Shown here: piece by piece, positions 45,645 through 58,000 of the stretch
Numbering within the stretch: position 1 is the first letter of the stretch
Layout: every line of letters begins with the position of its first letter
Assembly (NCBI GenBank): GCA_029964075.1
Contig: CM057129.1
Location: forward strand, 15,553,430 to 15,617,429
Origin: Patiria pectinifera
Lineage: Eukaryota; Echinodermata; Asteroidea; Valvatida; Asterinidae
Reading direction: 5' to 3'
Length of the DNA stretch: 64,000 nt
Program-made: the position numbers and the translations under genes
The notes under the pieces: generated by a model
Database searches by the model: none
What the model saw: only the letters and a program-made list of their open reading frames with translations
What the model was told of the DNA's origin: nothing

Positions 45645-46091
45645 TCAGAGATGCGTATCGGCGATTTGTATCCGTCTCATCTCGTAGTGGTCTTGCGTAG
45701 CGTCTCCCGTCATGTCCATCATTTCCCCCATCTGGGAATCGTCCTGCCAGTTGCTACTGACCCTCGACGACGGCCGGCTCCGCGACTCCCCCTCCTCTTC
45801 CCCTCGCACGTAGGCCCCGCCCGTCTTGAGGGCAAAGATCAGGTCGTCGAAGTCCTGCGAGTCGGTGTCGTCGTCGTGGTGGTGGGTCGGTGGGAGAGGG
45901 GCGGGGACATCTTGGAAGGGTGCAGGGGCGTAGAGGTTGTTCTGCTCCGGTCTGCTCCGGTTGCCGCCGCCGCCCCGGCTTGCCACTGAGCCAGGTCGGC
46001 TGGGCTGGGATTGGTTTGTCTTACTGTGCTGACTGTGATGACTGTGCTGGCTGTGTTGGCTTTGACGACCGAGGGACTGGGTATCCCACTC
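45645..46091 (-). CDS. ADGRV1: ADGRV1 last exon: cytoplasmic tail with PDZ-binding motif
   Basis: The 148-codon exon opens with EWDTQSLG, then a Ser/Gln/His-rich stretch. It carries a highly conserved acidic block (DSQDFDDLIFALKTGG) and ends RRIQIADTHL. DTHL is the class I PDZ ligand known to bind scaffold proteins such as whirlin and harmonin in vertebrates (family knowledge). The opposite-strand frame is an antisense shadow. Confidence 0.93.
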   Translation of the reverse strand, partial: EWDTQSLGRQSQHSQHSHHSQHSKTNQSQPSRPGSVASRGGGGNRSRPEQNNLYAPAPFQDVPAPLPPTHHHDDDTDSQDFDDLIFALKTGGAYVRGEEEGESRSRPSSRVSSNWQDDSQMGEMMDMTGDATQDHYEMRRIQIADTHL

Positions 46092-49000
46092 CTGAAACAA
46101 ACAATTATGCTGAAGTTACTCACTCCTGAAAATCAGCCCAACTTGGCAGGAGATGATGTTTTACCTTCTGTTTTGAACTTCAGGGTTGCAAGTAAGGTTG
46201 TCAATGGAGAGCTAGTAAATAATCTTTTTAGATGACACCACACTGACAATGTTCAAGTTCACCATCTTAATATACTTGTCCATTAGTTTTGGATTACCCT
46301 TTTTGATACATGCTGTACAGCACCTGAATATGAAAGGGAGAACACCTAGTTGAATAATGGTCAAAAGTCATTAGGAAACTTCTCTATATATTGACTCCCT
46401 GTGTACATTCCAAAACATGCATTACAATACATGCATGACAACCCTCAGTAGACTGGTCTGGACTAGTTGACTGAAGTAGTCCTCACATCACTGACTAGTG
46501 TATGTTGGATCAGAACATGGTTTGCTATCGTAAACAGTAGGGTTAACCACAGTTACAATATGGTTAACTACAGTTAACAATATGGTTAACTACAGTTAAG
46601 AATATGGTTAACTATACATAACACTATGGTTAACTATAGTTAACAATATGGTTTACCATTGATAACATTATGGTTAACCGTGGATAACAATATGGTTCAC
46701 TTTGGTTAACAATATGGTTAACCACGGTTAATCATATGGTTAACAATATGGATCTCTATCATTTTTGATCGAACTAGCTCCATGTTTTCCCATTTCTTTT
46801 GACCACTGGGAGCAGTGTACTCACATCATGGTTGCCTATGATGGTCACCCCAGGCGGCTGTTCGGCCTTGGTCAGCAGGACCCTTGACCCCTTCTCAGAC
46901 CCCGCGGCCATCAGTCCGTTGCCCACATACTGGCTGTTGTCCAGTAACATGACGGAGTTGTCAAAGCCCGAGGGGTTGAGTGAGTAGTTGCCCTTCCTGG
47001 GCCGACAGATCTGGTTGCGTAGGATGGTGTACACGACAAAGGCATACAAACCCTGTGTAAAAATCAAATTCTCAATTACATTACCATTAGGCTGAACAAA
47101 CAGGTTTCAAATCCAAGGAACTAAATTCCTTCTTGATAAGATTACATACCTTATAAATTATAACATTTGTTCGATCTTGAGTTATTTGGAGTAGCAATGA
47201 TAAGGTAATGATTTTATGATGAAATATCCAAAACTAAGGTGTTTTGATACAAAATGTTATCAAGAAAAATTCACCGGTAAAATCACAGAATCCTAAAATT
47301 CCACGTTAGTAATGACTGTTTATAGTATGAAGGAACTGAACAAATAATTTTGAAGCGGTTCAACAGGTTTGAAAGGCTGTGCATTCTGACCCCTTTTTTG
47401 GGTTAAAGATTCTGTCTTTAATTAATATTTCCCTCCCTTGTAAGATTCACCAGTCCAAACTGCAAAAAAGGTCAACTTTGAGAAGGAATTTAAGACTCAT
47501 TTTGGGCTTTGTTTCCAAACGGGCCTCATAGCCGAGCGTGGAGCTACAGAGTGGAGCTACAGAGGTTGGCGGTTCGAATCCCATTCGGACCAAAAACTGG
47601 AAAACTCTCTCTGACGACTCAACAGTAAAATTGGAACCCGATTCGTTCAGGGAAGGTAAGACGGCGAGAGGAGAGGACTGGGCACCGCCACGCATATGCC
47701 GCGCCCAAGACACAGTGGACCTCTAACACCCCACTGCCCCTACGGCCAGTAGACCTTTACCTTTTACCTTCCAAATCAAATGTTCAAGGATTCAAAGACT
47801 ATAAACAGTCAAGGTTTTTTTTTCACAGCAAGGGAGGATTTTTGTTTCCAACTTGCCTGAACAATGTTGAAGATGACAAAGACAATGAGCAACCAGAGGT
47901 AACTGTAGGCCATGTGTAGACCGCCGAAGAGACAGGTTAGAAAGATGATGGCCCAGAACACTAGCAGTAACTGCACCTCTGTAAGATGGAAATGAACATC
48001 AGGATTTTTTTAAAAATAATTCACGATAATGAAACCTACAATCGGCAGAACAAATCATTTTTTCCCCCTTACGTGGAAAACTGAATATGGTCTAGGAACA
48101 GTCCTAGACCATGCTGAAATATTGATTTTGCAATAGGTAACAAGTACTGGGTAGTTTTTACTTTGGGACACAAAAGCTAATTTTTCCCCCTATGATTCAT
48201 TTTTTCCCCACAAAAATCAAATTATTGGCTTCTAGACAATACCCCAGCTCTCACAGGGTAGGGTCATTTGTACGCAGAATACAATTCCTTTTCAGAGGGT
48301 TACAGATGCCCGAACATCAGAATAAAGTAGTTTTTTCCCATTAAAACAAGTCATACAAATTGAAAATTCATCAGGAGATAACAATTCATTGTTGGAAGAG
48401 CACAGGGTATGCATTCTTAAGAGGCTTCTGAATGCACTCATTTGGGGGTATCACACAGATACGTAACTGCAGAGAACATGGGGTTTAAACATGGATAATT
48501 TAAGGCATACACTTGATGATGGGGCACTGTATTGTAAATATCTTAAATTGGTACACATCAGGTATTCACGCCTTTCAACAGATCAAAGGCCCAACTTTGT
48601 AGAGGTTTGCACAAGATTTCCTGTTCACAGAACCGTGTCACGGAGATAGAATTTATTTTTCCGTTATTAAAATTTCAATCAAAGGCACGGTCTGAATGCT
48701 GATCGATCTTTATAGAATTGCGATTGTATTTCTAGTATTTCTGATCAACCCTGTACCACCCAAAACCGGCCCGCCGGTTACTCCAAGAGCCACCCCAAAC
48801 TGTCCCAGCACTAAAAATGGGATTAAAAACACAATGTTATACAATGTTATACAATGTAATACAATGTAAATACAATGTAAATACAATGTAAATACAATGT
48901 AATACAATGTAAATACAATGTAATACAATGTAAATGCAATGTAATACAATGTAGTACAAGTGTTCAAGGGTTAAACAAATATACAGATTTGAGTTGACTA

Positions 49001-52000: not shown

Positions 52001-55000
52001 AGTGTGCTCGTCGTTGATCACAAACACCTTCCACAGATTGAAGGCCTGAAAATTAAAAATGAAAGCAAATTAAACATTAAATATATCAGAATCAGGGGGA
52101 GTGTGGCCTCATGGATACGGTTCGTGACTCATGATCAGAGAATCAGGGGTTCGAATCCAGCTACTGGCAACTTGCCTCTCTCAACCCAGGAGTATAAATG
52201 GGTATCGGCACCAGCTGGTGAGTAGCCTTTCAGTCCTTTCATGATAACCGGTGATAAACGCCGGCCTGATGAGCCACATCTTGGAACAGACTTTACTTTT
52301 ACATACTAGAATTTAAAAAGGTGTTTGCGTGATGCTGACTTTTAAAACCTTTTTCAAAAGTGGAACATTGACTCCAAAACAGTAAATCAACATTCTTAAT
52401 AATAATAATAATAATAATAATAAACAGTTCTTATATAGCGCATAATACAATGAAGTCTCTATGCGCTTGTGCGAGTGAACAGGTGAGTTTTAACAAGTTG
52501 TTTGAATTGATCCAAGGTGGGACAGGTTTTGATATGGTTAGGGAGATCATTCCATAGTTTGGGAGCAGTGAATTGAAAGGCACGTTGACCGTATGATTTG
52601 GTGGTAACTGGATAAGGAGTGAGAAGATCTTTGGAACTAGAGCGAAGGGTTCTTGGTGGTTGATATTTATTGATTAATTCTTGGAGGTAAATTGGGGCTA
52701 ATCCGTGTATGCATTTGTAAATCAGAACCAGTAATTTGAAAGTTATGCGGGATTTCACTGGTAGCCAATGCAGGTCATGCAGTACTGATGAAATGGGTTC
52801 ATGCAAGCGTGTTTTGGTGACAAGCCTCGCCGCAGAGTTCAGTATCCGTTGGAGTTTATTAAGTTGGGAATCTGGCAATCCGTAAAGGAGACTGTTGCAG
52901 TTGTCGATGCGACTTGTCACAAATGCATGGATCAGCCTTTCTGTTGTTGACTGATCCAAAAATTCTCGAATTTTTCCAATTTTATGTAAGCCAAAGGAAG
53001 AAGCACGACATATATTACTGATGTGCTTTTCCATAGTTAAGTGTTCATCGATGATTACGCCAAGATTCCGTGCACTTTGAATTGGTTGAAGAGAAGAATT
53101 GTCGATGGTGATGGGTGGAATTGTTTTTTTGTCTCTATAACGGGAGGACATGTGGAGTACCTCAGTCTTTTCCTCGTTCAGTTTCATACCATTTATGGAA
53201 GACCACGCTTTGATGTCATTCAAGCAGGCTTCAAGATTTGGAATGGCCTCAGTCTGATCAGTATGTTCCATAATCGTATATAACTGGGTGTCATCTGCGT
53301 ACATTGTGTAGTTAATACCATATGACTTGATCACGTCTTCTAGTGGAGAAGAGTATAAGTTGAACACAGTGGGCCCAATTACTGAACCCTGGGGGACACC
53401 TCGTTGCACGGGATAATTGCTAGAAATCTGGTCTCCGATGACGACTGATTGACTTCGGTTGATGAAATAGGTCCGAAACCAGTTGAGTGCTTGGTCACGG
53501 AAGCCAAATCTCTGCTCTAGTCGTTTGAATAAGATGTCATGGCTTATCGTGTCAAAAGCCGCCGAATAGTCTAAAAGTAACAAGACTGCTTCTCGGCCGC
53601 TATCCAGTGCAAGCAATAGATCGTTGCAAACACGAAGTAAGGCCGTTTCACAGCTGTGATTTTTTCGATAGGCTGACTGCATTGTTGCATTCAAGTCATT
53701 TGCAGACAGGTAGTGCTGAATTTGACAGACAGCTGCACGCTCAACCGTTTTGGACAAGAACTTCAAGTTGGCCACAGGACGGTAATTCTTAAAGTTCTCG
53801 CAGTCCAAGGAGGAATTTTTCAGAAGCGGTGTTATATGTGCACGTTTTAGGCTGTCAGGGAAGTTTCCATCTATAAAGGATCTGTTGATAATGCAAGCGA
53901 TGATTGGTGCAAGTTCATTTGCACATCGTTTCAGAAGACTTGTAGGGATAGGATCAAGGCCGCAGCTAGATGTCGGGGAATCGGCTATTAGTCTCTTGAC
54001 TTGTTGTGCAGACAATGGCTCAAAACGATTGAATACAGTGTCACAAGTACGGAACTGGATGTGTGAAGTGTCATGGGTTGTTTTCTGAAGCTCACTTGCT
54101 ATCCGCTCAATTTTCTCCGTAAAGAAAAGGGAGAAACGTTCTGTTAATGGTCCCTGAGAACTATCTGCAGATGGGGTGACTTTCAGGGATGTCACTTTAC
54201 ACATTTTGTCAACTTTATGAAAGAGTTCACGTGAGTTACAGTTTTCAAGTTGTTTAGTGTGGTACTCTTTCTTAGCTTTAAGAATCATCTGATTATAGCA
54301 ATGACTCTCAACTCTGAAAATCTGGCGATCGACCTCGAGTTTTGATGATCTCCAACGACGTTCTAGGCGCCTGAGATTTTGTTTGACTTTGCGTAGTTCA
54401 TTGTTATACCAAGGTGCATTTGGACGACATGTTATTGAACGCGAAAGAAGGGGGGCATGTTTTTCCAGGAGCTTGCTGAGAACGGCCTCGTACTGTGAGA
54501 CCAACTGATTTGCATCAGTCGAATGGGATGTATAGAGCTCGGAATTAAGAATATCTTGACGAAATCCATCAATGTCAATGTCGCGTATTTTACGCGTCTT
54601 GATGTTCATTTTGACGATGTCAGGCCTGCCGATGTTAAGCAGACAGGTCACTGCAGCATGGTCAGATGGTAGATAGTGGGTGGTTGACATGTCTGCAATT
54701 AATTCGTCTGGTGTACGTGAAAGAATCAGGTCAAGCGTATGACCTAAGCGATGTGTCGGAACCAGGACGTGTTGTCTGAGATTGAAGGAATCGATAAGTT
54801 CAGAAAATAATACTGCTTCACGATCGGTTTGATTGTCCATGTGGAAGTTGAAGTCACCTGTGATTAACAAACGATTTGGTTCCGAGACCAGTTCTTCGAG
54901 AAATGTTGAGAAATCATTCATAAATGTGGGAAATGTTTGTTGTCGGTTCTTAGTTCTTTGCGGCCTGTAAACCAATATTAGCCGTAGAGTTGTGTTGCGT

Positions 55001-58000
55001 TGGGCAGTTACAAGCAGGTCAATGTATTCGAAAGAGTTCCATGGTTTACATTCATTATGGCGCACTCTAAATGTTTTCCGTATACATACACCTACTCCAC
55101 CACCGGCTCTATTTTTTCATTCAACAATGACACTCTACAGCCTCATTAATGGACTTAGTCTTAGAAAATTTAAACAATTAACTAAATAAGATTTGGCAAG
55201 CCTAGTAAAGCCAGCCCAAGATCACTTTTTGGTCTAAGGGGTCCGATCACCTGAATTTTTTTTTTAGGCTTAAGCAAGTCTAATTCACAAGTGAATGAGT
55301 CAGTGTGACAATCGGTGAGTCAGTGAGGTACAAAGAAGACTATAGGCTGGCCCTCTGGGACTAACAAATATGAGATCTTGAAAGCTCCTGAAAGGTCTCG
55401 AACCAAACACTGACCCGAGATGTGAACAGAAGATTTTTTTTTTTTACCTGTACAAGCATCCAAGTGAATTGAGCAAGAAAGAAGAAGTGAATGAGAACCC
55501 CCAGGACCGCACAGGAGGCTGTGGAGATGTAGCTACTCACGTACGCTGAGGTGACAAAGACAACCTAGACACACAGAAAAAGAGAAAAGGGGGAGGGATT
55601 GTCACTGCTCATACTACCAAATAATAACATGAAAGCCTGAGTTCTTTTACCAATTATTCACGGAAGGTCTTATACCTGTTTCGAACTTGCAAATGTAAAT
55701 GTGCATATTGAAACAACGGTGACTTGTTTTTTTGTAATTGAATGTAGTGTTACCTGGAGTGACATGGCAGCAAAGCACATGTGTATGAGAAGCTTGGCAG
55801 AGAACATGGAGTAGACGGAGCAGACATTGTGAGCAATGATGGCACAAACGAGACCAGCCTGTAGAGAGAAAAGAAAATTGAACAAATCCCAATAACACAA
55901 AGCTGAAACACAACAAAATGAATCAGCGGTTCTGCAAATATTTACAATACTATATTCAAATCAAAACCCTCCTCAATCCTCCTCAATCCTCAAGGCGGTT
56001 TTGGAGGATTTTGGATTATGGCTGAATGGCAAAAAAGTGTTGGTTGAGTTTGGAGGATGCAATGTGTCGAGTTCGTAGGCTGTACCCTGCATTGTTTATG
56101 TTCAGTCATGCATCACTGAGCTCTGCATTATGCTGAATATCATCCGCACTGCTTCTGAATATCATCTGCACTGCCTTATCCTATTACAGAGATTGTTAGA
56201 GGATTTTGAAGGATTGAGGCAATGGTCACCCCTCCACTGAACAAATTCAGGAAATAACGGATGACTTTGGAGGATTGAGGCTGGCTCTGATTTTTACATG
56301 GTGGCAATTGGAGGATTTTGGAGGATTGAGGATGGTTCCTCGCAAAAATGACCTAGGGGGTTTAGTGAGTGCAAGTAAAACCCTGCATTACGTAATGCTT
56401 ATGTGCTCCATACGCTGCAAAGATTGTTAAGAATCCGAAAAGAATTAAGATATAAAAAAAATACACAGGTAGCCCAAACCCCCCAAAACAGAATATTTAA
56501 AATCAAATGTTCACGCCTTTATAATAAACTGAAAGATCTCCTACTCACAATGCAGATGAAACAGGACACGTAGATGTACACATTGTAGCCAACCAGATTA
56601 TCTGTTTCACCCTGGGCTGCGTAGTCTGACAAGTGAGTGCAAGAGCACTCCACATAGGCTCCCTGCTGCGTCTGCAGAAAAAAAAGATAAGAAAATTGAC
56701 CAATCAAAACCTATGTCTGATGTCAATGAAATAAAGCCAGCCAATCATGGCATTTCTCTCAGCATAGTCAGGCAGTTGAGTGCATGAGCACTCCACAAAG
56801 GCTCTTTGGTCAGTCTGCAGAAAAAGACTTAAGAGAGAACTGACCAATGAAAAGCACTGTATGATGTCAATGAAATAATGCAGCCAATCATGGAAACTCT
56901 CTTATCATAGTAAGGCAATTGAGTAAATGAACACTGAGTCAACAGAGGCTCCCTGATCAGTCCACTGAAAATAAAATAAAGAATGGACCAATGAAAAGCT
57001 CTGTCTGATGTTAATGAAATACTGCAGCCAATCACGGCACCTCTCTTGCCAACATCAGTTAGACAAATGATTGAATTTATGACATCTCATCAACTATGAA
57101 CTCAAAAGAACCGAAGGAATATAGAGTACCAAAGCGTGACGTCAGCTTTCATTGTTCTGGTTCACTCTGGTTTGCGTAGGAGGCGCACTTCGGTACTCTA
57201 TTTTACTGTTGTCTATTTTGTAATTTGTGCAAAAGAAGCTGTGTTCTCCCTCCATTTGTCATTTCTCAAGTTTGCAGCACTATTGTCATCACCAGCATCA
57301 TAACTTTGGGAGTGATCACTGGCCAACGTGAAATAAACAACTCTGGAGTTTGCCAAACTTTTTTATTGGAATAAAAGTTTCTGCAATACAGCAATTCTTC
57401 ACTCAACAGTATACACAGCCACAAGTACTGGGCCCAGACCTACCAGTATTTGACAGCTGTCCGGTCGCCAGCGCTCGGTGGGTCCGTTGAAGATGACACA
57501 GCTGGCTCCCCGCGGTGTCACCCTGGCATTGTCGGTGTAGATGCGGTAGGTGACCGGTGTGGACAGCCTGGTGAAATTCTGCTCAGCTCCCTTGATGGCC
57601 ACGGACAAAACCTGACACACAAAGAGACACAAAGCATGTCTTCAATGCTTGACTATCGCATGACTTTTCTGTGCGTGTATGTGTTCATACACGATTCCCA
57701 GCATACGTCCGCGATTGGGGTCGTGTGCAAAACATATGGATGTCTTCCTAAAAAGTTACGAGTGCAAACAAAAGAGGGACAATAGGACGTCCACGATCGA
57801 CGGTAAACACACGTTTGTGTGTATGTGTGGATAATAATAAGAACGCTCCTATTAGTAAACTAAATCACAGCGCTTACAGTATTATTATTATCCCTGATCA
57901 TTGGGCCAATTTAACATTCAAAATACCATCTCAGCTCCCTGGGGAGTATACAGCTCGATGCTGCCTGTTAGGCGCAAGCAAGCTTATTCAATCACAATAA

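Follow-up and report, generated by a model that had tools for sequence, protein, structure and literature searches.

The window analysed here, a 64,000-nt stretch of contig C1 in a genome of 613.5 Mb assembled into 1020 contigs, carries on its minus strand a gene whose identity as ADGRV1, given in the original prediction, is supported by comparison with PDB chains. In this search, restricted to PDB chains, 55 aa from a downstream exon match 9fte_A, 'Adhesion G protein-coupled receptor V1', with E=1.1e-12, the next best match having a value of 1.2. For the GPS exon together with the next exon, the value against this chain is 1.2e-9 (next best 3), the match starting at the second residue past the cleavage site. 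The seven-helix exons and the upstream pieces gave no Pfam match at the curated cut-off, the seven-helix and GPS exons being identified by the PDB search, and no Calx-beta or EPTP hit was obtained in the two upstream pieces scanned. When the exon preceding the GPS exon (57444..57611) is joined to unit 1 of the repeat described below, the Pfam GPS domain is recognized with 33.7 bits at a cut-off of 22.5. The C-terminal exon (45648-46115, minus strand) ends with ...IADTHL followed by a stop; this end resembles the PDZ-binding end of vertebrate ADGRV1 and is a further hint at the identity of the gene. Between the seven-helix exons, in gene orientation, lies an 885-codon open reading frame (52462-55116, minus strand) that looks by eye like a non-LTR retroelement protein.

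Features of the triplicated region of ADGRV1 (positions in the window)
Feature	Position	Strand	Description	Basis
ADGRV1 exon upstream of GPS exon	57444..57611	-	ends ...SCVIFNGPTERWRPDSCQIL, phase 0; donor GTAGGT	translation and flanking splice sites
Unit 3	56902..57048	-	intron end and exon copy with 4-nt insertion; aligned acceptor AG lost	
Unit 2	56758..56903	-	intron end and 57-nt exon copy (56758-56814), TDQRAFVECSCTQLPDYAE; open 56707-56814	
Inverted repeat around unit-2 acceptor	56803..56850	-	arms 56803-56814 and 56839-56850	
Unit 1	56615..56759	-	intron end and first 57 nt of true exon	
True GPS exon, first part inside unit 1	56549..56671	-	TQQGAYVECSCTHLSDYAAQGETDNLVGYNVYIYVSCFICI; acceptor CTTATCTTTTTTTTCTGCAG; donor GTGAGT	

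Repeat search, TRF and self-match all agree with the prediction that three tandem copies occupy 56615-57048. Copy spacings are 143 to 147 in three three-copy repeat families; TRF reports a period of 144, 2.9 copies and 77% matches, and the best ungapped self-match scores 51 at a shift of 144, the maximum in 200 dinucleotide shuffles being 17. In each unit, about 87 nt correspond to the end of the intron and 57-61 nt to the start of the exon. In the transcript the units follow one another in the order 3, 2, 1, and only unit 1 is followed by the remainder of the exon with its donor. The array, with head-to-tail copies across an exon boundary at a single locus, amounts to a tandem partial exon duplication. 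A search of the remaining intron (57049-57443) and of 56100-56540 detected no fourth unit, scores staying within those of shuffles. About 70 bp upstream of unit 3 there is a 93-bp element (57115-57207) with 20-nt inverted ends (85% complementary), similar to a small MITE. Since the 434-bp array has one match in the genome, in a search that skips very common words, the array is not a dispersed repeat or transposon.

The alignment of the three units suggested along with the original prediction gave, gap columns aside, 113/144 identical positions for units 1 and 2, 105/141 for units 1 and 3 and 114/142 for units 2 and 3. The corresponding K2P distances over the unit are 0.25, 0.31 and 0.23.

Unit 1 translates as CTHLSDY and thus has the H-X-S/T motif at the predicted cleavage site; together with the Pfam score given above, this bears out its designation as the true exon with His-Leu-Ser. 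The expected open GPS-like copy reading QLP was found in unit 2, which translates as CTQLPDY and lacks H-X-S/T at the corresponding site. Its frame continues into intron-derived sequence and stops after 36 residues, so the early stop that had been anticipated is there, at a somewhat shorter distance than the 40 or so residues foreseen. Joined to the upstream exon, unit 2 still reaches 25.4 bits for Pfam GPS (cut-off 22.5), although the shared upstream exon accounts for much of this score. In unit 3, which contains a 4-nt insertion, TQLPYY is readable only in another frame, just as had been stated; the frame opened by its own upstream AG (exon base 56964) meets a stop after 19 residues. Units 2 and 3 have QLP in common and resemble each other slightly more than either resembles unit 1, hence unit 3 was probably copied from an already altered unit 2; the order of duplications is weakly resolved. 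As described in PMC13062082, cleavage at the canonical H-X-S/T uses the histidine as base and S/T as nucleophile, so that QLP has neither of the two. The same source reports that ADGRB2 carries HLS and yet was found uncleaved; the HLS motif of unit 1 is therefore no proof of cleavage.

The splice acceptors of the three units differ. In unit 1, 15/16 positions in -20..-5 are pyrimidines and the nearest AG is no closer than -40. Unit 2 retains CAG preceded by 13/16 pyrimidines, with AGs at -14 (inside the pyrimidine tract) and -26. Its acceptor, described originally as good, is thus kept, but is only moderate and weaker than that of unit 1, and would open the exon at 56814 instead of 56820. In unit 3 the aligned AG is gone, and another AG, with 13/16 pyrimidines, lies 3 nt upstream.

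Donors were scored against the consensus MAG|GTRAGT. Both true donors score 7/9. The interval from the unit-3 to the unit-1 acceptor contains 12 GTs, none of which reaches this value. The best of them, 6/9, is located in the intron part at 56844, and the four that follow the unit-2 acceptor have scores of 3 to 5. A score of 6/9 means little, because about 16% of all minus-strand GTs in the window score 6 or more. An alternative or mutually exclusive exon would have its own acceptor and donor; here the best GT stays at 6/9 vs 7/9, though a weak donor may exist. With no GT as donor-like as the true ones, use of the unit-2 acceptor, if it occurred, would extend the exon to 266 nt and place the stop 155 nt before the next junction. 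A stop so placed usually triggers nonsense-mediated decay. Consequently, of the outcome proposed for unit-2 use, loss of the motif, an early stop and absence of the seven-helix domain follow from the sequence, whereas not much ectodomain would be expected, as the mRNA would be a target of that decay.

If unit 2 were maintained as a decoy acceptor, its coding part should be kept better than the flanking intron copy. Comparison of the units revealed no such difference. Units 1 and 2 are identical at 42/57 positions of the exon part vs 71/87 of the intron part (Fisher P 0.30), and in the three-way alignment 35/56 exon columns vs 62/85 intron columns are invariant (P 0.20; gap columns left out). 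Units 2 and 3 differ by 6 synonymous and 5 non-synonymous changes, 3.1 synonymous ones being expected (P 0.039). This excess, obtained in one of three comparisons, over few sites and with the 4-nt insertion of unit 3 set aside, counts mildly against the copies being relicts. Synonymous excess is seen also between units 1 and 2 (7/13, P 0.006) and between units 1 and 3 (7.5/16, P 0.001), but here it is expected because constraint on unit 1 alone gives it, and constraint is not thereby proven. The best-kept piece of the array is the 5' intron block, with 49/61 invariant columns vs 48/80 (P 0.011; the boundary was chosen after looking). Plain decay does not predict this, and the observation speaks against it.

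The open frame of unit 2 could be compared with chance. In simulated neutral decay, run with branch lengths of 0.20 to 0.10 and an assumed indel rate, neither a stop nor an indel had arisen in the 18 copied codons in 14-35% of runs; the 18-codon intron-derived tail is open in 24% of shuffles. Treated as independent, both parts would be open together in some 3-9% of cases, which makes the complete frame of 36 codons mildly unusual but not striking.

The intron ATTGGTC block of units 2 and 3 is predicted to base-pair with the beginning of the exon copy, on the other side of the pyrimidine tract, with the AG included in the pairing. The hairpin thus formed by the inverted repeat of unit 2 has a comparable predicted counterpart in unit 3 and is not predicted for unit 1. 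In the predicted folds, the G of this AG has an unpaired probability of 0.02 in either unit with a hairpin, and the AG of unit 1 is free (0.94-1.0). If the acceptors of units 2 and 3 were decoys held in hairpins, opening or binding of the unit-2 hairpin would lead to a non-cleaving truncated product and the level of receptor could be tuned. The stability of the hairpins is not significant against shuffles (P 0.104 for unit 2; 0.298 or 0.11 for unit 3, by stretch folded), nor is the folding of the whole array unusual (z -1.09; 11/100 shuffles fold as well). Moreover, the acceptor AG of the preceding exon, taken as in use, is also predicted to be paired (0.07-0.09 unpaired), and AG pairing therefore does not discriminate decoys. 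On these grounds we reject hairpins as a means of hiding decoy acceptors and regard the model as very improbable.

The explanation we favour, with a probability of roughly 0.86 judged from sequence, is that units 2 and 3 represent a relict, left by a partial exon duplication, that is decaying and is not a working switch. A stretch of 143-147 bp, made up of the 3' end of the intron plus the 5' half of the GPS exon, would have been tandem-duplicated twice. Because the copied piece ended mid-exon, the extra copies would have an acceptor without the exon's donor and lie inside the intron. The 3'-most acceptor, that of unit 1, is continuous with the remainder of the exon and would be the one used, while units 2 and 3 would normally be spliced out with the intron and decay. 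Use of this acceptor in RNA, neutrality of the copies and the order of events are the parts of this scenario that we infer. Of the two possibilities named at the outset, the decaying exon duplication is favoured by the lack of extra constraint on the exon part, the weaker unit-2 acceptor, the AG loss and frameshift of unit 3, the lack of a GT equal to the true donors and a frame openness unsurprising by chance. For the regulated decoy exon, our tests added only the u2-u3 synonymous excess (P 0.039) and the non-significant hairpins. A relict of this kind would be a clear example of a mid-exon tandem duplication leaving behind competing acceptors that have to be ignored or disarmed, and ADGRV1 gene models in this genome should then not count the copies as exons.

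The frequency of tandem arrays on the contig indicates how often such an event may be expected. In 20 sampled 10-kb stretches of C1 there are 9 arrays of period 60 or more (present in 7/20 stretches), and the 64 kb window contains 6, the ADGRV1 array included. If the period is limited to 100-300 and the copy number to 4 or fewer, the 200 kb sample has 3 arrays and the window 3, again including that of ADGRV1. For a unit of 120-144 bp, we estimate the chance of an array hit per acceptor at roughly 0.2-1%, selection being ignored. In a gene of some 90 exons, a number assumed from the vertebrate ADGRV1 gene, between a fifth of an event and one event would be expected, so that one acceptor-spanning event is unsurprising but not certain. 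Among other GPS loci (the best 30 of 150 matches scored, partly close paralogues), arrays of period 60 or more lie over the GPS match in 0/30 and anywhere in the 3.1 kb of the locus in 2/30. The GPS matches are spread over contigs numbered up to C22 and a few high-numbered contigs, the latter with small coordinates. In this genome, GPS-bearing genes seem to have undergone large tandem expansions: seven GPS matches are found on one strand in C16:4109715-4126888, mostly about 3.2 kb apart (0.9 kb in one pair), and C4 carries many more.

A regulated decoy (poison) acceptor would work differently from a relict. Use of unit 2 would bring in the early stop, and either mRNA decay would lower the amount of receptor or an ectodomain without the seven-helix part would be made; the adhesion receptor would then have a splicing switch located precisely at its cleavage site. 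Unit 2 has what this requires to some extent, namely CAG with 13/16 pyrimidines, the 36-codon open frame and, with the upstream exon, a Pfam GPS score (25.4 bits) above the cut-off of 22.5, much of it due to that shared exon. The mild synonymous excess relative to unit 3 points in the same direction, and soluble N termini arising from alternative-splicing premature stops are described for mouse and human adhesion GPCRs in PMC6667449 and PMC11039983. The exon copy is, however, kept no better than its intron, the acceptor is weaker than that of unit 1 and has an AG at -14, unit 3 has decayed, and the openness of the frame is unsurprising by chance. Judged from the DNA, a decoy acceptor is therefore improbable.

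Even less probable is that the array acts as DNA, for instance as an intragenic promoter or enhancer just upstream of the GPS exon giving rise to a transcript of the C-terminal part. It contains six CCAAT motifs, two inverted ones per unit at matching places in all three units (56700, 56741, 56844, 56884, 56988, 57028). Six CCAAT/ATTGG in 434 bp compare with 1.1 expected, but the duplication itself inflates this count threefold, as the repeat alone triples one pair. The high invariance of the 5' intron block (49/61) would suit such an element, yet its boundary was picked post hoc. There is a precedent in ADGRB1, where, according to PMC11711277, an intron promoter gives a product close to the C-terminal fragment; the true GPS exon of ADGRV1, on the other hand, has no in-frame methionine codon. 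An assembly artefact or collapsed haplotypes, for which nothing speaks beyond the general possibility, is the least credible explanation of all, given that the units differ by 20-25%, far above sequencing error, and that the array has a single genome match.

Tandem exon duplication and exon-derived pseudoexons are of a known kind, and the ADGRV1 array resembles them in consisting of local tandem exon copies with splice signals inside an intron. Its copies differ in covering only the 5' half of the exon; since they lack the exon's donor, a role as cassette or mutually exclusive exons is unlikely for them. In the literature on partial-exon tandem duplication, the ADGRV1 array is unmentioned in the titles and abstract beginnings among the matches listed. 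The hypothetical unit-2 product would be N-terminal and without the seven-helix domain, like the truncation isoforms of adhesion GPCRs in PMC6667449 and PMC11039983; those isoforms were assembled from RNA data, while the unit-2 product is predicted here from genomic sequence. Cleavage-deficient GPS sites offer another parallel. In ADGRB3, R replaces the base H at the GPS and the wild type is not cleaved, as stated in PMC13062082, and the QLP of unit 2 is likewise without the H base and, in addition, without the S/T nucleophile. Unlike a site in a full receptor, that of unit 2 would sit in a truncated product.
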